From Candidatus Omnitrophota bacterium (GTDB taxonomy: Bacteria > Omnitrophota > Gorgyraeia > Tantalellales > Tantalellaceae), in contig JADHWG010000012.1 of NCBI GenBank assembly GCA_016783605.1, forward strand, positions 1 to 35,931: a DNA stretch of 35,931 nt, given 5' to 3'. Below the pieces are notes generated by a model. The model was not told the DNA's origin, ran no database searches, and worked only from the letters and a program-made list of their open reading frames with translations. A program made the position numbers and the translations under genes. Shown here piece after piece: positions 4,482-35,931 of the stretch; the first letter of the stretch is position 1; each line of letters starts with the position of its first letter.

Positions 4482-4500
4482 GCCATATTTCAATTTTTTT

Positions 4501-5878: not shown

Positions 5879-5913
5879 AAATCCTCCCATCATTTCTATT
5901 TTAGAATAACTAA

Positions 5914-5941: not shown

Positions 5942-5948
5942 CCAATTT

Positions 5949-6048: not shown

Positions 6049-6068
6049 AATTAGTATGTATAAAAATA

Positions 6069-6097
6069 TTGACAAATAACCATACAACAAGTATACT
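6069..6097 (+). promoter_or_regulatory. Near-consensus promoter of the BrnT/BrnA operon
   Basis: TTGACA (6069-6074) and TATACT (6092-6097) are 17 bases apart. The expected start is at about 6104, one base before the brnT ATG at 6105, so translation would be leaderless; no ribosome site is visible. CATAC (6081-6085) and GTATG (6103-6107) are inverted around the -10 box, with GTATAC between them, a plausible binding site for the BrnA-like repressor. Confidence 0.75.
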
Positions 6098-6104
6098 TTA
6101 ATGT

Positions 6105-6609: not shown

Positions 6610-6641
6610 AAAGTATATCTTTAACAAATAGCATTAAACAT

Positions 6642-6668
6642 AAAAAAGCCCATTAAGTTGGTTTTTTT
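6642..6668 (+). terminator. Probable intrinsic terminator of brnTA
   Basis: A-tract, GCCCA, short loop, TTGG and a run of seven T form a small imperfect hairpin about 33 bases after the brnA stop codon. The stem is short, so efficiency is uncertain. Confidence 0.5.
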
Positions 6669-6693
6669 GTGTCTTAGGTGACAAACGAGATTC

Positions 6694-6764
6694 CGAGCCC
6701 CTTCGGCAAGCTCCTCTCGACTTCGCTCGAGACAGGCAGGACAGGCGCAAGCCCGGGATGGCAA
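6694..6764. repeat. Palindromic intergenic element between brnA and ATPase copy 3
   Basis: TCTCGA (6715-6720) and TCGAGA (6727-6732) form a hairpin, followed by two GACAGGC copies nine bases apart (6731-6746) and GCCCGGGATGG. It is rich in G+C compared with the flanks, as expected for a dispersed extragenic repeat. The gap 6669-6852 holds nothing else that I can support. Confidence 0.45.
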
Positions 6765-6852
6765 GGTACGTATGTGCCATACATGATAACCCCTTCATTA
6801 TAGAATACTCCAAAATGGCACATGCTTACATAATAGAGTATACAGCTCGCCC

Positions 6853-8076: not shown

Positions 8077-8098
8077 ACCTGTCTTCACCTCGTGTGTA

Positions 8099-8127
8099 AG
8101 CATACCACATAGGTATGTACAAAACAA
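8099..8127 (-). promoter_or_regulatory. Putative promoter and operator of ATPase copy 3
   Basis: TTGTTT (8127-8122) and TATGCT (8104-8099) are 17 bases apart. CATACC (8101-8106) and GGTATG (8112-8117) form an inverted repeat over the -10 box. The block TATGTGGTAT-R-CTTA around the -10 is shared with the promoter of ATPase copy 1. The -35 match is weak. Confidence 0.5.
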
Positions 8128-8278
8128 CAAAATATTATGTACAACTTGACATTTAAATTTGAACAGATTAACAACAAAAAACCAATACTATCCGGTTTAC
8201 GTTTTAAATCGGACACATAGTTTACAAATCGTCCCTTATTTTACATTCGTATTACATCAATCGAGCTCTTTCATTCCA

Positions 8279-8320
8279 CCAAAACAACCTCGTAGGTTTC
8301 AACCTACGAGGTTGTTTTGG
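8279..8320. repeat. Near-perfect 20-bp palindrome containing the AACCTCGTAGGTT motif
   Basis: Bases 8279-8298 are the reverse complement of 8301-8320, with only two bases between the arms. The core AACCTCGTAGGTT/AACCTACGAGGTT recurs at 5960-5972 and 8483-8511, and in shortened form near 1350-1361. It could act as a bidirectional transcription barrier or be a REP-type element; it is too symmetrical to be chance. Confidence 0.8.
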
Positions 8321-8335
8321 GAAAAAGATCTTATT

Positions 8336-8423
8336 GCGCCTCTCTTGGCGGGGTCGGCTTGCGCCGATAGGGGCCCGCCAAAAGAGACGCTTCTGAGACA
8401 CAAGAAAGATCTTTGCGTCTCAG
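8336..8423. repeat. Block of nested hairpins between ATPase copy 3 and the giant gene
   Basis: A 17-base arm (8336-8352) pairs with 8374-8390 with two mismatches, enclosing a TCGGC/GCCGA hairpin (8354-8367). Next, CTGAGAC (8393-8399) pairs with GTCTCAG (8417-8423) around an AAAGATCTTT palindrome. GATCTT...TGCGYCTC occurs on both sides in direct orientation. This part of the 448-base gap 8077-8524 has no coding frame with recognisable content. It may be a structured RNA, a miniature mobile element or a decayed one. Confidence 0.55.
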
Positions 8424-8485
8424 ATGGTTAATTTTTCACGCTTCTTCAAATCTTCAAAAATCTCAGAATTCGCCAAAAATTCAAC

Positions 8486-8511
8486 CTCGTAGGTTGAATT
8501 CAACCTACGAG
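8486..8511 (-). terminator. 26-base perfect palindrome after the giant gene
   Basis: Bases 8486-8511 form a perfect palindrome starting 14 bases after the stop codon of the giant gene. On the minus strand it is followed, after GTTGAA, by five T. It carries the AACCTCGTAGGTT-type arms of the local repeat family. It is probably both a family member and the terminator or 3'-end stabiliser of the very long transcript. Confidence 0.55.
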
Positions 8512-8524
8512 ATTGGTAGCGGGA

Positions 8525-11500
8525 TTACGCTTTTGTCAGCACTTCTTGTACGTATCTTTCGTAATCTTTGACTTCGGCGTTGAGATCAACGGCTTCTATG
8601 TTGGGGAAATAGAGGAATACGTTGTATCCGGCTATTTTCTGAAGCATTCCGTCTCTTACGCCTACTGTCGGAATTTGGTTATTGTTCGCCATGATCTCTA
8701 GAGTTTTTCTGTAGAGCTGGCTTATTAGTCCCGTATCCATTCTGACCAGAAGCATATTGGCGTCGGAATTCTCCGCGAGGAGAGCTGTTATGTCTCGCGC
8801 GCCGGAGGTGTCATCTATTTCCGTTTTCACCGCGATTATTCCTCCCCTTGTAGCGAGGGCTACATGGTCAGCTTTTACGCTCTTTCCCGTAATTTTGTTG
8901 ATCTTATTAAGAACTTCTTCCGGAGATACTCTCTCTCCTTCTTTAACCTTGATCACTTCGTCAACATTTACGTATTTCGCCAATCCGTTAAATTCAAGCG
9001 CTTTTGCCAGACTTTCCGTTATCTTGTTGTTTCGGATAACAAGAATATCTTTTATCGGATCGGATTCATTATTCGATATTTTCATACTCGCGCGTCTTTC
9101 TTTTATTGACGCGGCTAACAGTTTCATATCCATAGCGGAATTGATCGCCGTTACCATATACTGCTTGGAACCGCCATCTCTTTGTTTTACTCCCAAATTT
9201 TCCATATACGTTTTGGTGTTTTCCTGATAGGAAACTTTATGCGTCCGGTATATCTTATCGATCTTTATGTTATACAAACTCTTTTCAGCGATTTTAAAAG
9301 ATTTTAAAGCTCTTGTATCGTCAAAAAACTTTACAAAAGTTCGGATACAATCCCTTAACTGACTTTCTTGAAGTTTGTTAACATCGTCGGGAGTAAAAGT
9401 ATCCATTTTTTTGATTTTCTCAATATCTTCTTTGGTTAACCTGGTTTTTTTAGATTCAACGAGTTTAGGGATGTCTTTTCGCGCTTTCGTCGCGAAATCT
9501 TTTATAATTTTGAACACTTCTCCATTATCCACGGAAGGCTCAATATCCAAAAGCGCGGCAATACATTTTTCATCGCCTATTTTCCATTCAAATTCATCCA
9601 TCATTTTTTCTTGAGCTTTGGTCGACACTTCTATCAGCGTGATGCCTTCCTCTTTAAGAGTTTTGACTTGTCCAAGTTCCAATTTACCATACACGCTTTT
9701 AGGAATACCTATTTGGACATCGAGATCTTCATCGAGATCCATCGAGCGCGGCATTACGCTCATTTCTTTATCCGTCACATTTTCTATATTTTCCACATCA
9801 AAGATCTGTATGCCGGCTTGCGTAGGATCTTCCATCTGCATTATGCGGCTTATAAATGAATCAATGTTCCTATTTGTTCCCGCAATTATAAAATCAAGTT
9901 CACCTTCTTTATCAAGATCGAGCTCTATCAGATCGTTGAGGCGTTCCAATTCTTTCCCACTTCCCCGAAACACATCCGTAACCTCATATTGTTTTGCGGA
10001 TCCTTCAGCGGGAATAAGCTGTTTTCTTACGGCCTTATCCAAAAACAGCTTAACTTTCTTTTCTTTCGCGGCATTCATGATCTCTTTCGACGTCCATATC
10101 GCCAAACCATAATTGATCAGAATTTTAAGCTGAATTCTCTTTTTGTTCTCTTCATCCAAAACCTTTATTTTGTTCATCAAGATCTGCGCTTCTCTAAAAA
10201 CCCATTCGTTCGGGAACTTCTCTTTCAGTCTCAGCAATATCGGCTGAGCTTCGGTTATGCCGTAATCGTCGATGATACGCATAACTTTCGCGGCAAGAGT
10301 GAAAGTTCTGTCGGATTTTTTAATATATTTTTGGGTTATTACGTCTAAGGCATCTACTGCTTTATTGTGCAATCCTAACCTTGCCGCGGCCTCGGCAAAG
10401 CCAAACATATTGCGATGACCCGAAATCGCCTCTCCCTGTAAATCCAAACTTGTACAAAAACCTCTTATTTTCTGAACCTGTTTATCGTCAATATCGTTTA
10501 ACCTGCCTAAAATGTCAAAGATCAATCCATGGGTTACTCGGCCATCTCTGCGTCCGGCGATATCTATGAACGTATTGACCATATCTTCCGTTACCTCGTC
10601 ACGTATTTTTTTCTCACAGAGAAGTTGCTCCAAATACCATAACGATATGATCTTCTTCCCTGTTTGTTTAAGCCTATCTGTTTCGTCAAGTTCCGCTTTA
10701 TCCTGCGTAACAGAATCTTTCACTTTGCCAAATAGAGCTTTTATATCTTTCTTTTTTCGAAATCCGTTAAGCGTTCTGAGTTCGCGGTCTCCAATCAAAG
10801 GTAAATATCGTTCGAACAGAAAAACATCGAACAAATTCATCTCTTCCGGCACCGTATGCGGAAGTTCCTCAGGTATCGGTTTGGCGTAATTTATGTAAAT
10901 TTTGCCATCCGTTCGCACCGACCAGCCTATTTCATACGGCCAGCCGTTATTTATCGCGACTACCCTTTTGGCAAATTTTACCAGTCGTCTTGCAAGCCCC
11001 GCGGGCAAAATTTTTCCGCCATCGATAACTTTTTCCGTTACAAGTTTTCCGTTTTTCAAAACCTGTTTTTTATAAAGTGTTCCCTCATTGATCACTTCAA
11101 CAATTTCCGTAAATCTGTTACTCATAATTTCCGCGGGTGTTTCACCGTTTTCCACACTCCCGCCATCAACACCCCAAACCCCCGTTATGTAGATCATCCC
11201 CTTGGATTTTGTTAACGGATCATATGTGCGTATTACACCATGGCGTTCTTTGTAGCCCGTATTTACGATTTTCGGGATATCCTTACTTACCGCCTCACCC
11301 ACCGGCACCTGTAAAATTACAGCGGGATACACATCACATTCCCTGATTTTATAATCTAATCTTAACCTAAACGCGTTATAAGAATATTTCTGGGCTATAC
11401 AACGCTTTACGGCTTCAAGAATCTGTTTCTCCGTTTTGATCTCGGGAAAATCAATATTTGGATACGAAGCATATACCTCGTCAGCATTTACTGTTGTCCA

Positions 11501-14500
11501 GTCCCCGAAATTAAAACTCGGAACCACCTGAAAGGTCTTATTATTATTTCGTTTCCTCAATTTTCTTACGCTTTCCAATATTATGTGCTCCAGACCTTCC
11601 GTCATCATCCCTGCAATTATGACGTCTCGTACTTTTTTCAATCTGCTTTCAAGCTCTTGCTTATTTATCGTCAGAGTCCCTGTTTCATCTCTGACGCCTT
11701 TCATTAGATCGTCAATTTTGTCCTGGATAGAGTGACCTGTTTCTTTATTCGCGTGCGTTAAAAATCGCCTTACAAATTCAAAAGAAAGAACAACTCCCGG
11801 AGCGATATTTTCCTCCAGCGAAGCGTTATTTTCTTCCGCGCCGTTATTGTTATTGATCATTTCCCCCAAATGCGCGGTCTTTGGACCAACCACGTTCATA
11901 TGGGACATATTCACATTTTTGAGGTCAAACACCAGTTTACGCCTTTTTCCAACAATTGCTTTCACTGTTCTGACTTTATTTATCGATCTCGCTTTTCTAT
12001 ATTCTTTCTTCTTTTCTATCTCATGGTTTTCCGCGACCCTGATGCGGACAATTTTATCAACATTCACCCTGAACATTATGTCTTTTTTCCCATATGGCTC
12101 TAATATGTTCACGGCATCCGGGATATGCGCCATTGGGATACACTCAGAACACGCTAATCGACGCGCGTGCCCATTTCCTCTTGAGCTAACAATTATCCCG
12201 GCAATATTCAGTTTATTTACTCTTTGGCGCATATCTTCCGGCAAAACTAAAATATCGTCTTTGCCCGCGCGCGGAATATAGTTTTCCAGATCTTCCGGTC
12301 CTTTTATCAAAACCAGCTTCCCTACCGCGATACCGCAGTTCAACCCGCCGTTGGCGCTGTATATGCCAAGTTTCTTTACGTGCTGTGCCAAAACTTTGTT
12401 AATATCTCCGGACAATGACTCAAAATTCTCACTACTCCCTATCTCCCTTATAAACTCCCCGATTTCGTCATCTCTTTCAGACAAGATCCTCCTCAACACA
12501 TTGATACTTCCCCAATGCGTTACGGCGCCGTCATTATCTCGTTCTTTTACACTTTTCTGAAACAATTTTATTTTATCGCTTAAATCCAGAAGTTCAGCCA
12601 CTCGTCCGCCCATTTTCTTATTTTTTTCATTTATTCGTTTTAAACATACACTCAATAACCGCTCTTCAAATCCTAAGCTTTGCGCGAACATTTTCGTCTC
12701 ATACTTTTCTACCGCATCAATTTCTTTTCGTATTACTTCATCCACGATCTGAATAACTCCGGCAGGATCAATTTTTTTCTGTATTTTTCTCGCGAGAATA
12801 GACCTAACAAACGTATCTATTTCCGATGTATATTTCGCGTTAAAAGGATATACTTTCTCACCAACATGCGCGTTCCAATAAAGACGCAGATATACGGCCC
12901 TGACTATCTGCAGATACAGCACCTTAAGCACTATTTCCATCGGCATATCCTCAAAAAACGCCCGGGTTAAATATACGGACGGATACCTGCCTTCGCGGCT
13001 TCTTGAAAAAGCGATCTGCCATTTTTTATCGCGGCACATAAGCAGATGTGGATGAAGCGCTTCGATACTTTTCTTTGCCGGTTCAACCAGATAGATCTTT
13101 AATTCTTTTAACAAGCCACAATTTTTTCTTAAAAATTCGTTAAATTCCTTATTGCTTTCAATTCTCTCCATTTTAGTCCAAAGAGATGATCCGCTTTCAA
13201 ATTGATTTCCTTGCGTCACAATTTTAAACTTATGTGTAGCAGGATCAAAAGCGACACATGTAAACTTGCCCTCGGTCATCCCGTCCCTAAGTTCCTTTAT
13301 TTTAAGATCTTTATTGTATCTTCCTTTGAATCCGACATCCGGGGGATATCTTCCGTCTTTCGGAAAACCTTTTGATTCCATCTCCATATTTATGTCGCCG
13401 TCTTCGTTCAGATATGGCTTGATAATACCAATACTGCTCGCGATCTCCGGCTTATGAGACATGACAATATTAAGACCCGCTTCACCTTGAACATTTAAGC
13501 CATTCGGCTCTTTCTTCAACCTATCGTCACCTTTTCCTTCGGCGTTAAAAACATACACGCTTCTTTGCTGCACTACCTTAAGGTCTAAATTCGTAAGCCT
13601 TGTGATATCCCGCCCGGCCAATTCTTTAACCTTATTAAGCATTGCCACCAAATCTTGGGGCATTGTTTTTACGCTTACATCCCGTAAAAGAACAGCTATG
13701 CTTTTTTCACCGCGCGTCTTTTCCCCAAGTTCGCGTATCATACCTTTTTTGTCAGTCGCGCCAATACTCACTAATTTTACACCCGTTTCTTTTTCCAATA
13801 TCGGACGAAGCTGTTCTCCAAATCTTTCATACACGGAAGCGGGAATTCCCACTTCTATCACAAATTCACTTCCCGGCGGCGGTGACAGCATTAGTAACGG
13901 CTCTTGAACTCTTTCGATCCTTTTTGTATCTTCAAGAGATTTTCTCACATTTTCATCGATTATTTCCTGCACCCGCGAAAGCCCGGCTATTCTTCCCTCA
14001 ACTATCTCCACTTTTTTCGCGGCATTCAACTGCAGAAAATCTTTATCTTTACTACTTTCTACACCAAAAACCGGAACAAGCCCTTCATTTCCAAAATTTC
14101 TCATAAACTCTTTAGTTTCAGCAACTTCCACAAAAGGAATACTCGGACGTATGTTAACTCCATACTTTGACCGTATATAGATCATATGCAGAACGTATTC
14201 TTTTATACCGGCGCTATCTCCGCATACGGTTACCGGTATTTTTCTATTTAGTTCTTTTTGTATTTTCGCGACCGATTCCGCTATGAGTTCTAACTTCTCC
14301 GTCAGTTCCGGCTGTATCGCACTAAAGAGCATAATGGCCTTTATGGTCTGTCTGAGATTGCCGCGTCCCAACTCTTTTTCAAAATCCCTGAATATGCTCC
14401 TTAAGAGATCGTTGGTTCCGATGCTAATGAAATCCGATAAAGTAATTATTTTTTCCCTGTTTTTCACGCCTTTAACACTCTCTATCATAGATCCGATCGG

Positions 14501-17500
14501 CACAGCTTCAAGCTTCTTCGCAATACTAGCTATCAAACTCTTATCAATCTCCGTTTCTTCTTCTCCTTCTTTCGAGACAGTTTCTTTGGCGGTTTTTAGC
14601 CACTCGCGGATGTCCAGCACATCCCGTTCTGTCTCAACCTGCGGAAACAATATTTGCACGTTTTCGGCGTCTTCTTCAACAATAGATTCATAAAGCGCTT
14701 CCAGTTCAACCGATAAAATCCGCGCGCCGACAGAGGTTCTATAAAAATCAATTCCGACGGCATTTGTCTCGGCACCTGTAATCCTTTTATCTTCACTTAC
14801 GTCAATTGTCCTAAAAGTCAGCGTTTTCCCGCCGGAATGGCGTATTAGGCTTTTAATGTTTTTCTTAAAAAACTGTTTAATCTCATTTCGCGCCTTCAAA
14901 TTTTCTTCGTCCGAGAGAAACGTGTCTAAGTACGGAATATTCTTGTTGAGCCACACTTCCGTGCGGACAAGCCCCACACCGTCAGCGCCATTTAAAAGCG
15001 CGGTATTAAGAGCGTCTTTTTCATCCACATTCGCGAGCACTTCCACGACATCGCCTTTCTCGATGCCTCTCCTCACACCAACCTGAGCCGGCTCCATCAT
15101 TATCTCTTTATGATATTTGTTAAAAGCACTTTGGCGTACGGCTTTTTTTCTATGGCTCTCTATCATCTGCCTGTCAGGTTTTGCCGTTAAAGAACCGATA
15201 GAACCATCCGAAAGAACGAGATCGCCCACTTTCACACTTTCGGTGATCTCATCCATCGTAATGTCGTCTTTGCCATTATGCCCTTTACCATCGACAAAAA
15301 ACACCGGAACATTAAGCCCTTTGAGGGCAAGAACCCAATGCGCTGTTGGTCCGGCAGTTGTCGTGACTATCTCGCACACATTCTCGTTTTTAACCAAACT
15401 AACCGCTTCCGGCGGAAGAAGATTGCCTTTTAGGAATAATATATGTTTTTCCCCGTGATCGGTTTCCTTAAATTCCTTTACCGTAACTTCAATTCCTTCC
15501 AAAAGAGAAGCTGTTTGTTTCAATATGCTTTGATAATCTTCTAACTCCGCGATAAATTTCTGATTATTAGCATCTCCTATTAAACTTTTTTTCCGCATTT
15601 CTATATCTGCGAACAAATCTTCCAGTATGACTGACGCCGGTAAATATTCCTCAACCATTCTTTTAATAACCTTTGTTTCAATATCTTCAAATACTATCAT
15701 CATCGCGGAAGTAATATCTTCATTCTCATCAGGCATAACAGAGAATTGCTTCTTGATTTTTTTAAGAGCCTCTTTGAATTTTGTCCTTTCATCCCTTATC
15801 GCGCCGGGGGCGATCTTGCGGGAATAAAAAATATCCGAGATGATCGCCTTATCCATAGCCTTCAAAACATTTATAGTAGTTGCGACTGGCACCGCTTTCA
15901 TCGCGGATATTGTTTCTTTGCCTTTTTCTTTTCTTTCCAGTTCAAAAATTTTGTTATTTATCTTGCGGTGCAGAAGAACCGCGGCTTTGGGTTTAATGAT
16001 GGGCTTTCCCGGCGTAATTGTCCGCAATTCGTCCTTTACGCTAAAGATAAGTTCGTTAAATATCTTAAATGTATCTCCGTTTAGCAAGTTCTTTAGGTCA
16101 CCACAGTTCGCTATCACCTTATGCAATTCATCTATTTCCTTCTCAATAATTTCTTTCGCTTTTTCCTCATCTCGCCGCGCTGTTTCCGGTATTATGTTAT
16201 GCACAACAGCCGCTATATCAACATCCTCACCCGCGTCATAATACGCGGCATATCCTGAAGCAAGCGCTTTTTTAATGCTAGAAACGCCTCTATATTCCGT
16301 CAAGGGCACTACCCTGTAACTTTTTAGCGACGTACTAATGGCCCGTTTTGTCTCTTCATTTATTTCCGCGCCGTCCGATTCGATACCTTTAACTTCCACA
16401 TTTATACTGACTTCACGCCCCGCGTACGGCACTTTGATCCTGACCGTTTCTTCCTGCGCGATATTCACCCCGTTTTCATAAAGCGTATCCTGAATAAACT
16501 TCTCAATCCCCCTTCTCACGTCACAAAACGCTATGATCAGCTGATCGCCCTCATACGAACCATAACATTTTGAATCCGAACAATACTCAAAACTTAACTT
16601 GTCCGGTTTCTCCAACACTTTAAGCGCCATCACATACGAAACCCTAAGAAGTTTTTTCGCGTATTCCTTATCCTCAAACACTTTCCGCGGCATATTGTCC
16701 TGAAACTGTCTAATAAATATCCTCTTATCGATTTTCCGCCCCGCATCCGAGAAGTTCGCGTCTTCCAGCCAGCTCAGATATTCATCGTCAGCAGTCTCCT
16801 CCTCGTCATCTGTTCTCTGCATATTCGCCGCCACAGCCAGCACCACGCCGCCGGCAATAAACATAACCTTCACCCCAAAAATACGCGCGCCCAAAGCCAA
16901 AGCCTCGAGCCCCGCACAAACCGCCAGCACGATTAAAAATGTCCGTAAGATATCATTCTCTTTCGACACAGGACGGTTTATTCTCCGTAAGTCTTCTTTT
17001 TCTTCGGATGTTAATGAAAACGCGTCTTTTCTTATATTTTTAAACTCTTTTGTTTCTTTTATCGCGTTAAAAGCTTTGAGTATTTTTTCTAAATAAGCCG
17101 GCGATATCCCAGGATATTTCTTCAGAAAAACCGCTGTTTCTGCCGCAGTTTCTGTCTTATAAACATTCTTAAAAAATACCCGTTTGAACCGGTTCATGCC
17201 AAGCTCAATAATATCGGCGGCAATGAGAAAAGCGGACATCTGCCGCGCTTCTGTCTTTTTTAATTCTGTCCAAGATTTTTGTTTTAAGTACTCTTCAAAT
17301 TCATCCGAACGTGCGTGATGAAAAAGAACTACTGCTTCCTGAACATCAGAGAGAGAAATACCGTTTCTTTTCGCGGCGGCGAGTGTTGCCGGTCCCTGGA
17401 ACTGATCAACCGCGTAATCCATTTCATCCTGAGTAAATTGGAATCCCCTGCTCTCGAAAATATTAATCAACTCTTCATATCGGCTTACATCATGAGAAAT

Positions 17501-20500
17501 ATCCCGCGGAAGCCCTATGCCCTTTTCAGATAAACTTGCTCGCAGTCTTTTCACCCTGGTTGTATCCAAATCAATGGATTTTGCAGGCGTCCCCACATCA
17601 TGAACAGCCGCCGCAACCCTGATCTTGTTTATACCCTTAACAGAAACCTTCGCCGCACGAGCAAGAAGAACAGCGATTTTCTCAACCCTTTGAGCATGGC
17701 GCCGTGCAAAATGAGATCTATACCCATCGTATATCTTCCGGCAAACCCGCGAATTCCACCTACGAGGTAAAACTTGTTTCTTATGTCTTAAATAAGCTTC
17801 TCTCATATCGCTAACAAACGGCAATAACACCAGCATACCGGCAAAATGGCTTTTTATGCCTTCATGTAAATTAATGAAACTTTGTATTTTTGGAGAAAGT
17901 CTGCTGAATGCGGGGTGCCTGTAACCGTCACGCCTCGCAATTTCTATTTTTAGTATTTCTTTTAAGGTTGGAATGCCTTGTGTACTAGGATAATTTTCGA
18001 GGTCGGAATTAGCTTCATAATATTCTTCAAGCGCGGTGTAAGTAGCTTTCCCTATAAAGAAATATCTCACCGTGGCCCAGCTGAAATATATACCAATAAC
18101 AACCGGCGTGATATTTATCCAATTAAAATTGCCAAGTATAAGATATCTTAAAAACGCGGCTACAGTTAACGTTCCCGTTAAAAGACCCGCCTTGTATCCG
18201 GAAATGGTTTTGAAAGCATGTGAATCTGTTTCTTTAGCCGATTTCTCTTCACCGGGATTATGGCTAAAATAAGTCCATCTGCCTTCTTCCTCTCTATCCA
18301 GAGACAATTCTTTCTCGATTTTAGCACATGCATTAATCTGAGCCTTATACTTGCCATCAACAGTAATTTTAACACCAATATTTGACTCTTTTCCCCAGTC
18401 TATAACTGCCTTAACCAATATTTTCGTCATTGCCTTCTGATTTATTCCCCAGGGCAAACATTTGAACTCTTTCGGCAGTTTAATAAGGATGTTGCTATGT
18501 TCTTCATTATCACCTTCCTTAATTAACCCAAAGGTCTCATCACGCTCTCTAAATTTAGCTATAATGTCCCTTCTACGAGCCTTTTTGTTTACAACAGTTA
18601 GCCCCGTAATAGTTTGATCGAAATCTGTTCTGAGTGTTATTTTAAGCTTAGACCCATCATATATTAATGATTTGGGTTTCTTCGTTTTTATGTGGCTTCC
18701 AGCCTTTTTCGAATCTTCTTTAGTATCAAGCGAGACAGTTTTATCTTCGGACGTTTTCTTACCACTGTGATCATACTCAAAATAAACCGAACTACTGCGC
18801 TCTGTTGTTTCCAGTACGCTTAATGACAATTTTTTTTGGTATTTCTCGCAAAAATCAATACCACCCTTGTCTTTTTTAGATACTTCGATCCTACAGGTCA
18901 TATTGGAACTATTCGCCTCTTTTATAATCTCCTGAATTAACGCCTTTCGGATTTCGTCTTTTTTCATTCCTTTAGGCAAATTTTTAAAAGTCTTCGGGAG
19001 TTCAATGCATACATCATTATATCCACCACCTTCCGCTCCCCCACCAAAAATATAGTAATGCTTTTCAAGTTCGGCTATAATCTTCTTTTTTTTCGTTGTC
19101 AGATTTACAACAATAAGCTTTTTGCTATTTTTAACTTTACCTTCTTCACATCTTATCTCAATTTTAGGATCTCCATCTTCTAACGATTCGGATATTTTCG
19201 TTTTGCTGTTTTCTATGGGCGCATTGTCTAAATCGAAATCCACATTTTTTGAGTCTTCATCATTGGAAAGTTTTTCTTCTTCGTAAACATGTGCAAAATT
19301 AGTCCAGGACTCCTTCTCCGGTTCCGATAATACTAGCAAACTTAATTCATCTTTTTTTCTTCGACAAAAATTACCACTTGCCGCATCGCGAGTATGAGTC
19401 CCAACCTTAAGGTTCACTTTAAACTCATTCGCCATTTTTATAGCTTCCTGAATTAACGCTTTTCTGATATCGTCTTCCGTTACTTCCTCAGGCAAATTGC
19501 TAAAAGTTTCCGGCAGTTCAATGTATACGTTTTGGCATGCATCCTCTCCCCCTACCAACTCAAAAGTCTCTTCGCTTTCTTGAAGTTTAACTATAATTTC
19601 CCCATGTTTATTCAAAACAGTAAATCCAACGATTCCTTTATCCAACGCTTCGTTCCTTTTTATAGTGTAAGAGCTTCCCAGAACTTTATTTGAATCTTGT
19701 TCAATTTCGGACTCGTCACTTACAAATGATGCCTTGTTATCAATATTTTTCATATCTCCGGCATAGGAATCAATTTCAAAGTCGTCTTCATTGGCGGTCT
19801 CTTCCCCAAGATCAACCTGATCTGTTTCATCTGCACTCGAAGTAAATGTTTCTGTCTCTTCCGGATTTCTCGATATTTTGTCCTCTTTGTAATCGTGTGA
19901 AAAATAAAACAGCTGCCAAAATCTTTTACTTTCCGTTCCCGCTTCTCTTAGATCTAATTCTTCCGCATTCTTCCGGCAGAAGGTGAGACCTTCCCGGTCT
20001 ATTATGGGCCACCAAACTCCAATTATGACATTCGTTTTTAATCTATTTGCCTCGTTTATGACTGTCAAAATTAACGCTTTTCTAATAGTATTTTTTGTTA
20101 CTCCCTTTGGTAAATTATGAAAAATAATCGGCAACTCGACATAAAGATTAATAAGTCCACCACTGATTTTCACCAAATCAAAACTATCCTTTGACTTGTT
20201 AAATTCGGCAATAATTTTTCTTTTTTTCGTTTTTGTGTTTACAATAGTGAACCCCGAAATAATCTGCTCACTATCCCTTTCACATATTATTTCAAATTTG
20301 GTATCTTTTTCTTCGATTATTGATTCAGATGGTTCCAATTTTTTCATTTTTTTCAGCGTTTTGTGCAAATCTAAACTAAAGAAAATCATTGTCGTTATAA
20401 ATACCAGCCCCAAAACAGCAACACTCCGCAGTCTATCGCCCGCATACCATAGTCCGCCTGCAAATAAGAGACCTACAATCGAGCCGATAATTCCCGCTAT

Positions 20501-23500: not shown

Positions 23501-26500
23501 TAAAGCACGTTCATAAATCGCGGTCAGCTCATTTAAAGGTATCGCCGCTATACCGCCCTTCCAATTCCCCAAAAGATCTCCCAAGCCAAAAGGATCGTCT
23601 CCAATTTGGGTGTCGATGTACGCTTTAGCAGCATTATCTGTACACGGAGGTTTCGTTTCCCAAATTTGTCGATACGCAGTCATATGAGCTAACGCGATAC
23701 TTTCATCAGCTTTAAGTTCCGCCAAAGCTCCCCTAACATTCCTCAGATACTTATCTATAAATTTCAAAACAAATTCTTCATCCGAAAATCGAGAATTATG
23801 CTCCGCGACGTGGCGATGCGGAATCAGCTCATTAAGTATTCCTGTCCCGCCGGCATCCATAGACGGTATACCTATCAATGGGCTTTTCTTAACCTTAGTT
23901 AACATCATCCTAAGCATTTCTGTTGTTGATTCTTCGTCTTGTATGTCATGCTGAAAGCTTGAGAGCCAACCATGCACAGTTTGTATGAGAGGTGGTGATA
24001 AAAATAAAGCCGCACCGATGAATGACGTCGGTAGCCATCCGTTCATAAGTGGAATCCATATCTTTAAAACCTCAACAGCATCTGCTATAAACAATCCTAA
24101 TCCAAACCCCAAAAACTCCAAGGACGAAAGAAGACCTAAAACCGCCACTCCATAAAAAATAGTCATAGCTAGCGTATATATCGCGGCAAGAACTGACGGA
24201 GTTGATGCCGCCAAATGCGAAATATGCTGAAACTTCCAGTATCCCATAGCCTTGACAGGGTCTATCTGCCACGCCGCGTTTCTTTTGAATCCTGTCCATA
24301 CAAGAAGTCTGTTAACCACATGACCAATGTAATAAAAGATTATTCCGCCGGCAACAAATCCAATGCAAGCCGCCGTAAGTCCCGCAAAAATATATCCATG
24401 AGCACTTCCAAGAACCGCCCATCCTAAAGCCATGCCGCATAAATATTGTCCAAAAAACATAAAGAAAGCCGCCGGATGGGACAAAACAACAGCAAATGTC
24501 TGCATAGTGATCCATCGGGATCTCTGACGCCACCAAGGGGAACCCATGCCAGGCAGGAGATCTTCATAAATCTGGGTAAACGGACCAACAAGCCGCGTTA
24601 CTGAAAGCTTATACAGGCTGAGCCTTCGACCTAATTCTGAGTCTTCAATTATGTTATAAGAATCCCATGTGCCGCTGATACTGTATGTGTTAAGATGATT
24701 CCGAAGCAAATTTGAGGAAATACGTATTTTTCGAATTTCAGGATCAAATAAAGACCGCAGAGGGTGTACAATCACCTGGGCGAAAAAACGAATTAAAACC
24801 GGCATTTTCGCGTATTGTTCAGCAACCCTTGTCTCTTCTTTTTGAACAATTTCTCTCAGCGGCATCAAAAGATTTTGAATTCGTGCTCTGTCATTTAAAC
24901 ATCTCGTCAATCTCCCGCATTCATCCAATTCTTCTCCCGCGAGCATATCCCAACGAAACCCGTTACCTGTCCCGCCAAGAAAAAGAAACCCTAGCTCCGT
25001 CTGGCCGATCTGAATTTTTGTATGCCACAACATATAATCCGAATGTCCCATATATATCTCGTCAGGATGTTTTATAGGCACCTGCCTCAGCTCTGCCTGC
25101 ACGATCGCCGGAAGGTTTCTCGCGTTAAATTCTGACATGGCAAAATATTCCGCGCTCTCATACACCCCTATAAAACTTTTCAGCATAAACGAAGAGCGTT
25201 CTTTTGCTCCTCCATTAATATCAGAATCAGCCAGTATTATTTCCCTTTTTAGTAAAGATTTTCCCCAGCATATCGCTTTAAAGGCTAATACAAAAGTTGT
25301 CCACCAATATGTAACTTTTAATTTCCATCTCTGACCTGTCAATCCCCTGTATTTAATTCCCCATCTTCTCAGATCTCTCCTATTTGTCCTTCCAACTATC
25401 TCATCGTCAATAGCCCTTTCCTTCATTCTCCATAAAAGCGACTTTGACTTCAGTAAAAGCGGACCCAGCCTATCTTCCTGGTCAACCAATTCGACAAATC
25501 CCGGTAACTTAAAATATTCTCCTTCTCTCTCCGCTCTCGCCTTCCTTTCTCCATACATTTTTTTGAGATACTGCACAGTTTCAACATTAAGCACCGGTTT
25601 CATACGTACCTTTTTTTGGTTCTTTTTTGAGTTCACACCCCACATTGACCCTGTATAAATCATTATGTTATCGCGATATTGCGCTATTTCACCCCCCTCC
25701 TGCATTGCTTCACGCACTTTGTCTACATTAGGGTCATCATCATCCATACATAGAACCATATCAATATGCCCGTTATAGCTTTTTGCGGCACTATCTAATG
25801 TATCTTTTATCTGCCATACACTATCTCCAAAAAATGTGTTCATCAAGACAACTGACTCGAATATCTTCTCGGCTATACTCGTTGTCTGAACAATTTTATC
25901 CCATTCTGCCAAAGTAAATTTAGAAACAATATCCTGATTCGTTGAACGTCCGTTTTCATCAATAGGCGCGGATGTTCCGTTTAAAGATCTCATTCTCTCA
26001 ACATACTCGGGTTCTTCCATCAACGCGTCAATTATCTCCTGCCTATGTCTTGTATCATTGGCAATAAGAGCTATATCCAAAACACTGCATGTTCTTTTTG
26101 TGGGATTTCCGGGGACAGAACTGGAAAATTTTATTCTGTGAAGAATCCAGTTAGATAAAGCCTCATTTTTTGAAAGTCTGACAACTTTTCTCCACCCTGC
26201 ATAGGATTTACAGATTTTTTTAAAAATATTTTTTATTTTCTCAGGTTGATTTTCTCCAACAGCATCCAGCTCATAAATAATTCTCGGCAGATAATGTGCT
26301 TTACCCTCTTGTATCAGTTCCTCTCGCGCTCTGATTAGGGCTTCTTTTATCAATTTCGGTGGCACATAATCAAGCACATCTTGATCTTGTACCTCATTAT
26401 TTTGTTCTTCAGAACCCGGAATAATCATATACAAAAGATACGTACCAATTAAAAATACAAGCGCGTAATGCCATATGTGCGCTTTCGCGATAAAAGCCAA

Positions 26501-29500
26501 AACCTTTGGCGAAAAAGACGCAACTTTATCTGGAAAAAATTCTACTGAAGCTTGAATAAGAGTTCTGCTTATTTTAGCAAATCCAGACTTAAAAGTTGTT
26601 GCCCACAATTTAATGAAGAAAAATCTTTTCTCCCCCACTACCTTTAATAACCCATATTTCATTAAACGCGCAAGATTAGTTCCCCACGAAATGTATCCTT
26701 TGTATGCCAAAAACCCTAATCCGCCCGCGAAACAAACTTTTAAAAAATTTCGCGTCTTTCTGGTGTAACCGGTGATAAATAAAATGTTTTTCAAAATGCC
26801 CACAACAGTAAGAAACCCAACAACTGCCGCGGTAATCAGCACAATCGTAAACGTTCCGCCGCTCATTACAGTTATGTTTTCGACCAATCCCCGCACAGTA
26901 AGAAAAATTCTTAAATTAAACGCATATTTACAAATTGGAACAGCTATCGCTGTAAATATCACGGTATGCCACAAATGCCTCTGCCAAAAAAGTTTTGGAT
27001 AACTTGTATTTTCCGGTCCCGGACCGAATCTTCCCTTTACTGTTCCAACCGCGAGATCCGCGGTTACTTCTTCTCTTTCAGTAATAAGCTCTATGGCTTG
27101 TTGCTCCGGGTAGCCTTGCTGAATTGCCGCGCGAACCTGTCTTACTCTGTCTCTGATATGCGGCAGATATCCATAAATATTGTTAAAAGGCACAATCGGC
27201 TGTACAGGATCCAGATAAGGAATACCCGTCCAATTTGAATATGAACTAAACCCGTTGCGAGGCATATCTTCTGTCACCATAGGATATGAAAGATGATCTT
27301 GCGGTTTTCCGGGCATAAGAGTTGTCGAAGGGTGGTCTCCGGGGGTTTGAGTCATATAAAAGTGAGGACCTTGCACATAAAACGTAGGCATAACATCATG
27401 CCGTTGTTGGTCGGGAGGATAATGTACTCTCGCGAATAAGGTATAGTTCTTATGTGTTTTTAAAAAATTAACCCACTCTTCTAAATAGTTCAGATAGGAT
27501 ATAAAAGAAATCTGCTGAGTATTAAGCTCAATCGCGTCATTTACGCCTCCAAAAGGAACCTGAATCGGAAAAACCAATAATTCCCGCCATTCTTCTGCAG
27601 AAAAGCCGTAGCTGTTTTCCTCTGTTATGAGCTTCTCATAATATACCCTTAACGTCTTCACTTCTTGCTCCATGACATTCAAGGCATTTTTTTGAGATCC
27701 AAATCCTTTTCTTAAAAACGGAAATATCATCAGGATTACGTCACCGAAAAGTTTAAAACTTGAGACTATCCCCAACGCCATGAAAATCAGCGCTATAATC
27801 GCCGGACCCGGACCATATCCCAAAACAAACCCTGTACTCTTCGCTTTTAGATAATTAGCTCCAAAAAGAAAGACACCCGTAATAAAAAACAAAAAGGAGC
27901 TAATCTTATACCTATATTCCGGCACATAAGGACCTGTACGCCGTCCATAAAACCTATTTCCTCTAAACGCCGTACGGAACGGTTCAACGCTTCTGTAAAC
28001 ATTCCACATAGCGGTCTGCATATGGTCAATAAGCCTGTTTTGGTCCGCCCACATTCTGTCATAATCAGCTTGCGGTGTAAAAACTTCTCGGCTGATCGTA
28101 ACAGGTTTACTCCAATCTCGATAAAATCCGGGTATTTTACTTAAAATCTTTTCTTTCCATCCAACCGGTTTCTCTTTCCTTTTGATACTGTTATTAACAA
28201 CCGCAAAATCATATACGGCCTTTATCGCTATTATGAGACTTATGCAATAAAATATTAACCACGGCCATGATGTAGGTGCTACTAATATAACTTTCGAAAA
28301 CGTGCCCTGAAGCAAATAGAGCGAATTTTGCAAACCCGCCGCCTTGCTTGATATAACCTTAATAGCTGCGTCTTTAAACGAGGCATCTACTCCTGAGGCT
28401 ACGATTAAAGCTGATATAAAAAATGTAACAAAAACTATTAATTTTCCAAATGGTCCCTGTTTATGTTTTGTTTCCTCTTTCTTTTTTTCATCCATAACTT
28501 TATCATCCGAGAAGTCTTCATCTTCGGAATCAGTTTTTTCCTTTTTAGAACTTTTTTCGGCACGCCGTCCGGCACCAGGTCCGCTTCTATCATTTCCGGT
28601 ACCGTTTCCTTTTCCACCTTTCCATTTTCTATATTTCTTATGTGAACCCGCACCGATCAAAAACATCACAAAAACAATTATGCCCGCCATGATAACCTTC
28701 GCTATCATCCTGACCACATTAACAAATTCACGTTTTATAACTTCAAAAGGCGTTGTTTTCGTTTTTTCATTATAAAAATCCATTGCCTTTTTGAAATCTG
28801 CGGAAGTAAAGCTTCCGTCGTTTAGGTCTACTGCTTTTATAATTTCGGTCTGTGTAAGTATGTGAGCTTTTAGTTCTTCCAAAGTAAGTTCGCCCATTTT
28901 ATCGTTAGCAAAACGAATCACGGTTTTTACAAAAAGATTGAATTTTTCTCTCCGCGGCAAAGAATCATATTCTTTACTCTCCGCGGCGGAGCGGATTTTT
29001 AGATAGCCCCTTAGATCTTCGCCATATTCATTAGAAGCAACTTCTTTAAAAATTTCAATAAAAGTTTCAAAATCGAAATCTTCTTGATTATTCCCTGCCC
29101 AATAAGCAATTGTACCGATCGAGTCCCCTCCAACTTTAGTTGTCAGATCAAGGTAATCCACAGTTTTTTGTTTCTTAACACCGTGTAATATCCCGAACCT
29201 TTCTATAGCGGTGTTCGCCAATATTACCATTTTATCTTTTAAAACTCTGAATTCTTCATTTTTCGTTAAAACAGGTTCTCCTGTCAACGGATTCTTCTCA
29301 ACCGTTAGCCTTGCCGTCCAGTATAAAATATTTCCCGTACTTACAGCGCTAACAGGTATTTTTCCGACCAAATCTGTAAAAATATTTTTTATTTTTACGG
29401 CATTATTGAACAATTTCACAAGTTCATCTTCGGTATTTATATTATTAAAACGTGCGACAGTATAAATCGTATCTAAAACTTCCCTTCCAACATTTTCTTT

Positions 29501-32500
29501 AAACATCTCATCTTCATCTTGGTGTTTCTTTTGTCTCTGGCTAGAGAATTTCCGTAACGCGTTTAGAACAAAATCCCTGGCCTTTCTATTGGTTCCTATT
29601 TTAAGGGAATATTGCTCTTCCAAAATCGGCGCGTCATGTGGGTCAAAATACTCGGCCAAAATGAGCCCTTTGTCCTGCGGAGTAAAAGAAAGAGATCTAT
29701 ATCGTGGGAGTTCTATTACTTTCCCCATCTCGGATCTGTCAATTTCTTCCTCAATCCAGTTTCTATTCTCTGTACCAAACAGTACAATATTTGAAGTTTT
29801 AAGTTCATCCGGCAAGAAACCTTCTAATAGTTTTATTTGCGAAAGATCTACCCCTCTCGTTTCTTGTTTTAAAGCCACTTGCCCTTTCACTTGTCCGGCT
29901 TCACTATGGATCAGTTCATATCCTCTCGCGGAATCCGCCTGCCCATCTATATACGGAAAGGCAAAAATTTTGTCTCCTATTTTCTTTTCTATAATCGAAA
30001 CTTGAAATAAATACCGCGTGTCCTTTTCTTTCCCCTTATAGCCTACATAATAAACATTTCTGAGATTACACTTTCCGGGGAGATCTGCTTTCGCAAGATT
30101 AATTTTAAATGTCTCCGCGTTCCTGCACGCGTTTATCTCTTCCCATAAATCCGGGATAGTTTTACCATCTTTAGGCTCTAGCTCAAACTCCGCGATAATA
30201 ATAAGCTCTTTTTTGTCGCCGACGGGCACTCTTTTGTGAAAATACAATATGCCCTGATTATAAGCGTCTTCTCCTTCTACGGTTTTAGCTAACCCGCTAT
30301 ACAAACTCAATACATTTGTTTCATCTTGATCATCAATCGCGAAATACTTTTCACATGTTTTCTCAAATTCAGTCAATATTCCGGTTTCTATGTTGTCAAC
30401 TGTCCCGGTCTCTTCATTTATGTCCACCGTCTCAAGCGGCAATTGATAACCCTCAACCACCTCTCTCCACCCGATCTCAGTCTTATGTGGTTTACCTAAA
30501 AATACCTTTTGGGGATAATAAAATCCTTTTACCCCGCCTATTTCGATCGTCAAAAACCATTCATCCCCATCAAGAAGATAATGTACAGGCTGACGCCGCA
30601 GTTCTAAATCCGCGTCTACATAATTAACGGCAAAACTATCACCATTTGTCTTCACTAAATATGCTTTCCATTGTTCTGATTCAAATTCTATTTCTGTTGG
30701 GATATAGGTTTTGAATATAGATACAGGTCGACCTTTTTCTGATATTTCTTGTAAAACATTTTGCGGATTTTTTGTTTCTAACAATTCGGGTTCGAACGCG
30801 TCTATTCTTACTACCGCTCTCGTCTTTTCCTCATCATCGTATATGTATACTACCTGTTCTAAAACAGTACCATCTTGCGTCTCTAAATATCTTTGAACGG
30901 GGAATTCTCCGGAATAAACATCCGCAGTGAACTTCCCTTCATCGTATGTATAACTAAGATTTTCTTTTCTTACATTATCTTTCAGCTCGCTTATTCTATA
31001 TAAATCCGGCTCATCCGCGTTTCTACGCCTTGTTAAAAGAGAAGTTTTTTCATAATCAATAGTATCGAGACTATCCTTCGAAAAATTTTCGGAAACCCTG
31101 TAGATGTATTCTTTCATTTCCTTTTCATCTTCATCATAAATCATTATCTGATGATCCCTTTCTTTCTCATCTGGATCATATTTCCTTACATCTTCGTACA
31201 ATAGCTTTCCTTTAAAATCGTAAATACCATACACTTCTTCAAGGGGCTCATCTACACCAGGTTCTCTTATCACCTTGTGTCCCCATTTCACGTCCGGAGG
31301 GAAACTTATAACTTTTGTTTTACCGCTAATAGTGCCTTTGCCTTCACCCAAATAGATCACAGCTTCTCTGGAATTAATATCTATTTCCGTTATTATTCTT
31401 CCTTGCCTGTCCGTCTTCTCGCCGCTTGTTAAATCGCTTAAATTAAATACTTCGGGAATAAAATTGAATGTTTTATCGGTTGTTTCATCGTATAAAACTC
31501 CTGTAGAGGAAACTTTTATAGTATTGTCATTTATCCCCTTTGTAACAACTCTATCAACACAAACATTATTCTCATAACGTATTGTCTCAGAATGAATGCT
31601 TCCACCGCGTAAAAATATAGGATTATTAAATTCTATTTCTACGGTTTTATACCCTTTCAATTTTCTTGTTTTTTGGGCAAGAGGATCATATTTTATTTCT
31701 TTAAAGGTCATATCTCTGCCGCCAAGAAAAATAAACTTTTTCCTGTTCCTGTAACGCGCTTCGCCGACTACTATAATTTCGTTACCTAATTCGTCATATC
31801 CATAAACGCGTTTTATAACTTCATCTTTCTTAGTATCCTTGTCATATTCGTATATCTCTATTTCATCCACTTCCATCTCATCTAAATTTCGGTTAAATCT
31901 GTAATTCCATACTACTTTAAATAAAAACTCGCCGTTTTTATCCGTAATCATATCAATATATTCTTTAATCCTAACCTTTTCGGCGATATATTGCTTTTTC
32001 GTCTGGGTTATATGATGAACTGCTCTATTATCCGTTATCTTTTGTTCCAATACACGCTCCCGAGCGGGATCCCATCTGATAGCAATTAAAGCTTTTCCAC
32101 CAACCACTCGTTCACAACTTCGGTTAATCCCTTGAAACCATTCCTTTTCGTCAGCAGTCTTTATTTTTCGACCTAAAACATCTCCGGCTTTTAACTTCGT
32201 ACCCGCGATAAATGTCTTCTGAACAGGCACATGTGTAAAGTCAGGTGCCGGAGAAACTGTTACATCAGGTGTAAATGCCGGTTTAGAAATTTTTGGTTTT
32301 TGAGAAGGCATCGGCGGGATAATTTTAGTAGGGGGCTCGGGCTTTTTCTGGATTTTTGTCGGATCAGGCATAGAAGGCGCGCGCGGTCTTATTGTCTTTA
32401 ACTCTTCCAACGACTTCTCTAACACCCCGGGATGTCTTCTGTATTTGATGTATGTCGAATTTTCTTTGTTATCAAACCATATGTTTATCCCGGTCATCCC

Positions 32501-35500
32501 CGCTTGATATGCCGCTTCCACTATCTCCGGTATGATACACTTGCCGCCTTTGTCTATATTTCCCGGCGCTTCTCCCACAAATATACTTACTCCATCCGGC
32601 ACATTCAGACGTTCCACGATATACTTAAATTTGTCGTACCAACTTCTACCCCTTGCAGGCACCGCTTTTATTACATCCGGATATGCATGCACCTGTACCG
32701 AATCTCCCGGCCTTAATCCTAACCAACTAAAATATCCTAAATTCATCAATTTCCCCACACTCATGCTCAACGGAATCTCCGCATCCACTCTTTTAAACAT
32801 ATCCATAGTTTTTTGCACAAATCTCTGCACTTTTTCTCTTTCTATCTCCGGATTAACATTATCGGGCTCATTCATTGCCTCTACAAAGCTAATGTATTTT
32901 TTATCATCCCCCACCACCGCCAATGCCTTCCTCCATGCTTCTTCAACTATCGCTATCAATTTATCTGCTTTAGCCTCATCCCTTAGAACATCGGGATGCC
33001 CTGGACTGTACGCATGCTTCCTATCATTACCTAATCCAAAATCAAAAAATGCCAGCCCTGGAGTTTTGCCACTAATCTTTGCTTTTCTAAATATCTCAAC
33101 AAAATCCGCTACCGCCTTATCTATATCTTTCCATCCTATGGGCGTATCATCTGCCGCATATTCTATCCCGCTCGCATTCTTTGACCCTATGTTTAAAAAG
33201 AGCCTCGGAGAACCTCCTCCGTAATTAAATATCTCTTCTATATCTCCTCCTCGATTCGTTACCCCCCTATTCGTCCCTATTGTCCCTTCATATTTCTTCA
33301 GATACGCACTTGCTCCCGAATTATTCGCAAATGTTTCTATGGATATCGGCTTTGTTTCTCTAAAAGTGCTCGAATCCGTTTTGTATGTGGGATCTCTTTT
33401 AACTGCTACAGTTGTCTTTCCTGTCTCCTCTATACTAAACTCTGTTACCTCTATCAACCCGCCAGCCTTCTCTGTTAGACTAAAATTCCTTTTGTCCCCA
33501 TCATTCAACGCTAATACAAGCCCTACCTCATTTACTTTACTGCCATCATATCCTGATTCAACATAACCCGCGCCTGACCCTACAATATAACTTATTTCGT
33601 ATTCCCCTGTCTTCGAATCTAACATCTTCCTATTAACCTCTTTCCAACCGGTATCCTGCCACTTCCCTCTACTCTTTGTCATAATCTGGATAACATTATT
33701 TCCCGGCCTTATGAATGTCTCAAGCCCTTTTCCTTTTACTTTAAGAGTTATCTTTGCCCCGTTTAAATTTTTTGCCCTGCCTAACGACTTTGAGATTATT
33801 GTTTTTCTGTGCTTACTTCTGCTCCTTATGAACGATGTGCTTATCTTCATCTTCCCGGCTTCCCGCATAACTTTCGTACGGCTTGCCCCCTCTTCCCACA
33901 CTTTCCAGCGACCGCCGGATAATACATCCATCTTTCCTTTTAAAGAAACTCCTGTTGTCTTAACTAAAGGAGCTGTAATAATTGGCGAAACGCCGCCCGG
34001 TATAATTGCCGGAGCAATACCTGTAACGGCTTTCTGTAAAGAACTCTTCATTAAATCCGGAACTTGCTCTACCGCAGAGGCCGGAAGAAACATTGACTTT
34101 TCTTCGGGCTTTATTCTGTATATCTTATTCTCTTCAAATATCTCCCTCTCCATATCTTTGTCCCCCACGGTCGAAAGAATATACCTTGTTTTAAATTCCC
34201 TGCCGAATTTATCCAAACCGTGTTCTTCCACGAGATAAGCATCTTTGTCAGATATTCCGTCATTATAAGTAATAGGGGTATACTTTACCGGTTCTAAAGA
34301 CATCTCCGGCGTATTGTAATATTCATAAGTCAGCCTGTTCCAATATACCGTCTCCCGACCATACATATCTTTGCCGGAAACCAATTCAAAAGTTTCATAG
34401 CAATTCTGAATAGAACTTTTTTCCTTTTCACTTTCTTTTTTGTATCCAAACACAGACTTATTTTTTGTTTCTTTGCAGTAATCATTAAACGTTTTCTCCG
34501 AATCCGCGACAAATTTATAGCCATGCACAACCCCATCATCACCTCTTCTATAAAAACCAACATGTCCAAAATCAGCTGTATCCGTATAGTCCCATAGAAC
34601 TTTGTCCAATAGAACTTTATCCGCGTCAATTCTAACCTCTTGTTCTTCCTTAACGGATCCATCAATATCAAACCGTTTGCCATGCATGGTTGATGTATCG
34701 TCAACATTGTAGGTATGACTAAATTCTGCGGTAATTTTAGAAGTGATCGGGTCAAATTGAATTTCCGTAATTAACCGGTGTAAACTATCATAAGTGTATC
34801 TTGATATCACGACGGGCTCTCCTATCACTATCCCGTTTTCCAAGGTAACGTTTATAACCTCTTCATTTATATTTGGAGTACTTTTTTCTACAGTAAAAAT
34901 TCTTCCTTCAAGTTCCGGCGTTACTCCTGCCTGGACAAGATTTTCAGTAAAGTCAACCTGAGACCAAAGATCTTCGCCTTCAGCATAAAAGCTATAAAGT
35001 TTGCCATTTTCCTCTGCCATGCGGGCTATTGTAGTACGACTAACACTTTCAAAATTTTCTATTCTAAATCCAACCGGGTTATATATGAACAATTCACTTG
35101 CCACTTTACTTTCACCATAAGTCGTAAACCCCTTACCTGTATCTTCAAACGTATCACTTCTGAGAGTATCAAAATCAAGGTTTTTGGTTATACCAACAGT
35201 ACTGATCACAATTTCTTCCCCGTCTATCATTGACGTTTTATACCCGTAAAGAACAATTCTCCTATTCGGTATGTCAACTCCGGCTTTCTCGATTATGTCG
35301 AGGGCATCGGGACGAAGGGCATCTTTGAAATCGAGCGTTCTTTCGCCGTTTTGGTATATGATATTCGCGAGATGTCTTCCGTTTGGCGCTATCAGGGGGA
35401 AACCAAACTTCCGGTTAGGCTGAGCATTCAGGGAGACTATTTCCCAGTTTCCTTCGCTGTCCGCCTCATCGGCAGGGAAAAAGCCTCGCACTGTTTCTTG

Positions 35501-35931: not shown

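Follow-up and report, generated by a model that had tools for sequence, protein, structure and literature searches.

A giant Omnitrophota gene joining a putative membrane glycan synthase, a hydrolase barrel and phosphotransfer modules

The locus and its reading frame

The window analysed here, namely a complete contig of 35,931 bp (G000:C10) from a Candidatus Omnitrophota bacterium, is dominated by a single giant open reading frame (ORF) on the minus strand (Table 1). A preliminary description had claimed one uninterrupted frame of more than 27 kb of Omnitrophota origin, and both points hold: positions 8525-35929 (-) are stop-free over 27.4 kb (9,134 codons), and all 11 named relatives of the encoded glycosyltransferase (GT2) domain, found with a conserved sub-alignment as query, are Omnitrophota records. 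At this length the frame lies well above the 20 kb by which giant genes in Omnitrophota genomes are recognized. The four domains named earlier, i.e., a glycoside hydrolase (GH)-A-like barrel, a GT2 synthase, an HD domain and an enzyme I (EI), were all upheld; a second phosphotransfer module and a C-terminal domain had been overlooked. No alternative genetic code is needed to read the frame, and searches of the window for Rfam RNA elements, introns and tRNAs returned none. Phage origin was also considered, and a phage collection gave no match to part of the EI stretch.

As the window is the whole contig, the end of the contig truncates the giant ORF, which must be at least this long. The first ATG lies at 35905 (8525-35905 (-), 9,126 aa), and the full-length protein probably exceeds 9,134 aa, with an N-terminus beyond the contig. 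In G004, an independent genome, about 2,540 extra residues precede the first part matching the giant ORF. Complete relatives have a signal-peptide-like segment at their start (...FKTVSVLVALLFVHQQTGWVQE in G005 and ...FIKCVCVIVAFIFAHQQLGWAQGG in G002, for instance) bearing the motif F.K...IF..QQ..WAQ, which is shared by two other giants of the window's genome; no such start is visible in the window, where the ORF is open at the contig end. Searching the same genome with the N-terminal part of the G004 protein gave no match, and no contig-end overlaps leading to the missing N-terminus were found. A search of that genome for the QQxxWA motif returned only two giants on contig C35, both of them complete, and thus no contig joining to the missing end.

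These two further giants (G000:C35:1840-12606 and 43739-59353; L064, L080 and L081) encode 3,589 and 5,205 aa. Both have a QQxxWAQGG signal-like start, and the first also encodes a PKD domain together with a related GH barrel. More widely, complete giants in G001, G002, G005, G011, G059 and G000 share an N-terminal signal-like segment (F.K....IF..QQ..WAQG) and a C-terminal domain of about 400 residues, which together may mark out a sorting class among the giants of the phylum.

Comparison with G004 indicates coding sequence under selection across the GT2 stretch as well as the HD/EI stretch, since third codon positions differ most (0.61-0.66, versus 0.32-0.34 at second positions). At the other end of the gene, a strong terminator-like hairpin lies 10 nt past the stop. 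We infer that the ORF yields one polypeptide. An alternative is that the frame is real, but that protease cutting or internal starts give GH, GT2 and EI as separate proteins. In two relatives, EI and the C-terminal domain indeed form a shorter ORF of their own (G002, with 2,971 aa, and G017), and a former protein end may be marked by the linker repeat at aa 7354-7460. We nonetheless judge such a split improbable: on the minus strand within the gene there is no terminator comparable to the post-stop hairpin (longest match 9 pairs), promoter-like matches inside it are not above those in shuffled sequence, and GT2, HD and EI remain in one frame in G004.

Two further features of the contig deserve mention. 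Third-position GC is about 0.34-0.39 earlier in the ORF and 0.41-0.49 over aa 6001-9134, where the phosphoenolpyruvate (PEP) modules sit. Directly downstream of the giant gene, positions 1404-8130 (-) hold AAA_14/DUF4143 ATPases (1404-2816, 4586-5893 and 6853-8130), which flank an AbiEi/AbiEii type IV toxin-antitoxin-like pair (3032-4445).

Table 1. Features of the giant gene in the window, in order of the encoded protein
Feature	Residues (aa)	Position	Strand	Basis
Giant ORF	9,134 codons	8525..35929	(-)	open at contig end
Beta-rich, carbohydrate-binding-like domain	~662-840	33410..33946	(-)	AF2 secondary structure/confidence; aligned in relatives
GH-A/GH5-like (beta/alpha)8 barrel	~860-1180	32390..33352	(-)	conserved motifs, AF2 model, Foldseek, profile
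Module M1, predicted extracytoplasmic	1258-2367	28829..32158	(-)	relatives G001, G004, G010, G059
First strong transmembrane helix, very basic loop after	2408-2426	28652..28708	(-)	hydropathy/charge
Membrane module ahead of synthase	2497-3170	26420..28441	(-)	hydropathy; relatives
GT2/GT-A glycosyltransferase domain (putative)	3320-3830	24440..25972	(-)	motifs, predicted fold
Transmembrane helices following GT2	3822-4319	22973..24466	(-)	hydropathy; conserved in GT2 alignment
Domain between two membrane segments, predicted extracytoplasmic	4330-4654	21968..22942	(-)	G004 same frame/order; positive-inside flanks
Five diverged ~130-aa repeats	4985-5903	18221..20977	(-)	tiled self-comparison
Transmembrane hairpin	5914-5960	18050..18190	(-)	hydropathy/charge
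HD domain	6070-6321	16967..17722	(-)	sub-threshold Pfam; alignment
Transmembrane hairpin ahead of EI	6330-6368	16826..16942	(-)	hydropathy/charge
PTS enzyme I-like module	6399-7345	13895..16735	(-)	Pfam, NCBIfam, profile, residues
Linker like start of C-terminal domain	7354-7460	13550..13870	(-)	sequence cross-matches
Second phosphotransfer module: His swivel, then PPDK_N ATP-grasp	7490-8600	10130..13462	(-)	Pfam, alignment
C-terminal domain common to the group's giants	8600-9134	8528..10132	(-)	alignment; ends YERYVQEVLTKA
Intrinsic-terminator-like hairpin past stop		8482..8515	(-)	15-bp stem, then T-rich tail

Glycan-active and membrane modules

The profile search proposed with the preliminary description bore out its domain list only in part: Pfam returned PEP-utilizers_C and PPDK_N, with HD below threshold, and matched neither the GH nor the GT2 region of the window. 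A profile search of PDB sequences with the GT2 region gave no match either, and structures were therefore predicted.

GH-A barrels cut or transfer glycans. The barrel of the giant, directly preceded by the beta-rich domain, carries E1021 as the putative acid/base, H1081 in an HxY motif and E1120 as the putative nucleophile, and its N, E, H, Y and E (NE, HxY, E) are invariant in an alignment of nine sequences. In Foldseek, at E~1e-9, the AlphaFold2 model (pLDDT 80.7) matched GH barrels that include GH5 mannanases, and a profile of the barrel reached GH5 mannanase sequences at E=3e-14. With an NE(P) acid/base and a Glu nucleophile on a predicted (beta/alpha)8 barrel, the region classifies as a putative clan GH-A glycoside hydrolase. 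Module M1, which follows it, is in frame with GT2, GH or both in all four relatives listed for it in Table 1.

Membrane GT2 synthases show the canonical motif series D / DxD / TED / QxxRW. The window has MDDDD, D3483xED, GGTGN, IED (D3763) and Q3802RSRW, and in an alignment of 11 homologues (several of them partial) the order is MDDDD, VELVDxED, FLFLGGTGNGF, YNIIEDSELG and WWxQRSRW. Over the 11 GT2 sequences ED, QxxRW and GGTGN are near-invariant, and the D and DxED motifs are kept where that part is covered. The AlphaFold2 model is of modest confidence (pLDDT 62, with the GT-A core at about 75-90). Searched against the PDB with Foldseek, it found dolichyl-phosphate-mannose synthase (DPMS), BcsA and other GT-A enzymes with probabilities up to 0.99 and a best E of 0.011, so none at or below 0.001. 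Its ordered motifs and predicted GT-A fold mark the region as a putative membrane GT2 synthase.

The envelope topology supposed earlier is matched by our crude positive-inside reading, which places the GH outside and GT2, HD and EI inside; M1 would also lie outside, and the chain from the ATP-grasp module to its C-terminal end inside. Helix 2408-2426 has six basic residues directly after it, and the domain at 4330-4800 is predicted to be outside, given the basic residues before helix 4301 and after helix 4807. The hairpins that follow (5144-5188, 5914-5960 and 6330-6368) are even and would thus keep HD and everything after it on the inner side. The predicted arrangement fits the chemistry, as both GT2 and EI require cytoplasmic substrates. 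When helices were counted in the same crude way in the separate EI protein of G002, a cytoplasmic position of EI did not emerge clearly. Of the membrane-flanking parts, the five repeats of about 130 aa have no match in the relatives or in Pfam; they are inserted at a point where, in G004, the HD hairpin directly follows the post-GT2 domain.

Phosphotransfer modules and their relatives

The HD domain is recognized by Pfam below the cut-off in the window (0.018) and at 4.8e-4 in G004. Residues H6078, H6110-D6111, H6204 and D6239 are conserved in an alignment of three sequences and form the metal-binding pattern H...HD...H...D.

EI moves phosphate from PEP to His. The EI-like module of the giant has the swivel His (H6864) and the PEP-barrel residues R6989, R7040, E7150, N7173, D7174 and C7236, and Pfam PEP-utilizers_C matches its barrel at E=1.4e-25. 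A profile built from five EI modules aligns with EI structures starting at residue 25 or 41 and ending at 459, the HPr-binding part included. All homologues carry the His, both Arg, the Glu, the Asn and the Asp, and the four that extend as far as the active-site Cys carry it as well; the catalytic residues are kept in every covering homologue at an overall identity of 31-45%. Judged by these residues, the module looks complete and catalytically competent. NCBIfam PTS_I_fam (TIGR01417) gives it 78 bits, short of the 341.7 set as the cut-off for a PtsI equivalog. The same genome encodes, on contig C42, a canonical EI (NCBIfam PtsI, E=1e-205, score 682) clustered with EIIA and with HPr at 19589-19828, and by its sequence the EI of the giant is a diverged paralogue distinct from this PtsI. 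The earlier label of a "sugar-PTS energy enzyme" is therefore too strong. Nor is there support for the idea that glycan synthesis is powered by PEP: GT2 synthases build their polymers out of nucleotide sugars, and nothing ties EI to GT2 activity.

The second phosphotransfer module has the His swivel first (H7921), followed by a PPDK_N ATP-grasp that Pfam detects in the window as two halves (E=2.7e-9 and 6.2e-8) and in G007, where the module occupies L029:13184-16333, at E=1e-42. The order is that of glucan water dikinases, whose intact ATP-binding residues the window does not share. While K8017 is kept, V8136, G8142, Y8348 and K8350 stand in place of the relatives' R, E, Q and R, and the ATP site is therefore probably inactive. 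The SSxNFED and QxR residues of the ATP-grasp are kept in G005, G007 and G012, and in G011 together with a rearranged stretch. In these four genomes GT2 and the ATP-grasp module share a frame from which EI is absent. The C-terminal domain that follows spans about 400 residues, occurs in most of these giants and ends in YERYVxEVLxxA. Its weak PDB matches to Rab GTPases and designed proteins (E 0.005-0.7) were taken as chance.

A purely regulatory role would account for part of this picture. Here, EI would sense the PEP:pyruvate state or trade phosphate with HPr and so gate GT2 or HD, leaving the glycan unphosphorylated. HPr, canonical EI and EIIA are clustered in the genome, the EI of the giant keeps the HPr-binding part at profile level, and an HD domain adjoins EI in G004 as it does in the window, with L093 again pairing HD and GT2. 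In Vibrio cholerae the PTS phosphorylation state governs biofilm output, that of EIIA-Glc controlling a c-di-GMP phosphodiesterase and biofilm formation (PMC6877527), and this precedent keeps regulation a strong rival. On the other hand, a phosphate receiver was not found in the chain and a c-di-GMP-binding domain was not identified, and regulation leaves unexplained the ATP-driven His-swivel module at a comparable place in relatives. On balance we regard it as possible, if somewhat unlikely.

How widely these joins recur bears on whether the frame is real. In G004 the order GH, GT2, HD, EI is distributed among three contigs, with every contig forming one frame that is open at both ends: C198 is homologous to aa 406-2335 (GH and M1), C203 to aa 2539-3590 (the membrane module plus the N-terminal part of GT2), and C216 to aa 3593-4654 and 5902-7343 (the rest of GT2, the next domain, HD and EI). 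The ends of the three contigs do not overlap; we infer one gene from their order, as C203 ends at 3590 and C216 starts at 3593. C216 by itself already carries GT2, HD and EI within a single frame. In G059, from another family, GH, M1 and GT2 share a 9,518-aa frame, and GT2 and HD do so in both L093 and L094. That separate genes were misjoined in assembly is suggested by the window being a short contig of a 72-contig genome and by the join from EI to ATP-grasp (aa 7345-7490), which is seen only in this contig. Against this, chance in-frame joining over several domain boundaries is unlikely, and the GH-M1, M1-GT2, GT2-HD-EI and ATP-grasp-C-terminal-domain joins occur in independent assemblies from other genera. 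The preserved order in G004 likewise argues against misassembly, which we consider largely refuted and highly improbable.

Across 384 Omnitrophota genomes, 16 gave a total of 20 GT2 matches, all in frames of 1,004 to 26,281 aa. EI is less fixed: the shorter ORFs of G002 and G017 combine EI and the C-terminal domain without the ATP-grasp module, that of G002 having a signal-peptide-like start, and EI-like barrels occur in other large frames of the phylum (e.g., G138 with 4,182 aa, G117 with 4,574 aa, G052 with 8,346 aa and G206 with 11,160 aa). Two side observations concern the relatives themselves. G011:C70 holds a 26,281-aa open frame with a distant copy of the GT2 core, and the homologous genes in G009:C615 and G017:C4 (L033 and L038) are frame-broken within the GT2 module and the C-terminal domain, through sequencing error or decay.

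Such turnover could also mean that a surface or predation protein gained domains by recombination, with the PEP modules as passengers or structural pseudo-enzymes that have no joint function. The strong turnover of modules among relatives, the ATP-grasp residues lost in the window, the EI-like barrels in many other giant frames and the post-EI linker (which looks like the beginning of the C-terminal domain, as would be expected had an EI/C-terminal-domain protein and an ATP-grasp/C-terminal-domain protein fused) all fit this reading. However, EI catalytic residues would hardly be kept in every covering homologue at such low overall identity, and the codon-position differences show selection on the protein. 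Mere shuffling thus appears unlikely to us.

Proposed function and known systems

The overall reading we propose, to which we would give an even chance, is that of a conserved giant membrane glycan synthase-hydrolase with a cytoplasmic phospho-histidine module whose donor has changed from ATP to PEP. Its core would be an inner-membrane GT2 polysaccharide synthase with a GH5-like barrel on the outer face, both in the same chain. The glycan would be made by GT2 from a cytoplasmic nucleotide sugar, passed through the chain's own membrane helices, and cut, trimmed or cyclised outside by the GH barrel. On the cytoplasmic side would lie HD and an EI-like module taking phosphate from PEP onto a swivelling His. 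In four relatives, the stretch between the synthase and the C-terminal domain holds a self-contained His swivel and ATP-grasp, as in glucan water dikinases, which transfer phosphate from ATP via His onto glucan (PMC7569903).

Because the module is ATP-driven in those relatives and its ATP site degraded here, our best-supported guess is a C-terminal third that serves as a phospho-His module and has switched its donor from ATP to PEP, a pattern drawn from few genomes (the ATP form in G005, G007, G011 and G012, the PEP form in the window). The phosphate might end up on the glycan or serve as a metabolic switch on synthesis. A more specific version, which strikes us as rather improbable, is a PEP-driven counterpart of glucan water dikinase, in which PEP phosphate would go via the swivelling His directly onto the glycan, or would gate the synthase, of the same chain that makes the glycan inside and cuts it outside.

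These results give one group of giants a readable core, namely a GT2 family found only in large frames and often accompanied by a barrel of the GH5-like type, plus a phosphotransfer end on the cytoplasmic side that exists in an ATP and a PEP form. With so few recognizable domains, Omnitrophota giants have mostly been viewed as adhesins or weapons; our findings suggest that some are enzymes building and editing a surface glycan. If so, the PEP phosphotransfer fold would gain a role within a membrane polysaccharide synthase. Specific histidines and glutamates of single modules are now identified for testing.

Giant Omnitrophota genes as such are already known (Seymour et al. 2023, PMC10066038; PMC12057145). 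The present gene shares with the giant ORFs of the former study the phylum, a frame above 20 kb, many transmembrane helices, few Pfam domains and a large predicted extracellular part. Those giants differ in having adhesion-type domains (discoidin, laminin_G, dockerin) or none recognized, and the passages of that study consulted here mention neither a synthase nor EI. The view that a fusion of EI and GT2 is undescribed agrees with the literature searched, whose scope left aside preprints and most subscription papers: within it we found no work joining Omnitrophota, giant, glycosyltransferase and phosphoenolpyruvate.

Among better-known enzymes, BcsA (bacterial cellulose synthase) and other membrane GT2 synthases have the GT-A fold, the order DxED / ED / QxxRW and transmembrane helices on both sides in common with the giant, in which no PilZ domain was found and which differs by an insertion of about 150 residues past DxED and by having no Pfam GT2 match. 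Glucan water dikinases, with their swivel-first order, and PEP synthases likewise combine a His swivel with a PPDK_N ATP-grasp, the swivel also coming first in the giant; unlike them, the window has lost the ATP-site residues, and a starch-binding domain is not recognized. PTS enzyme I (PtsI) resembles the EI module in its His swivel, its PEP barrel with R, R, E, N, D and C, and a recognizable HPr-binding part, whereas the module of the giant is embedded in a membrane chain, is strongly diverged and coexists with a separate canonical PtsI. Finally, the pseudomonad Orphan/NdvB GH17-GT2 proteins are far smaller, consist of two domains with a GH17 rather than a GH5-like barrel, and lack HD, EI and a dikinase module, yet they too place a TIM-barrel hydrolase outside and GT2 inside in one membrane chain, so that GH and GT2 in a single chain is of a known kind (PMC10237404).
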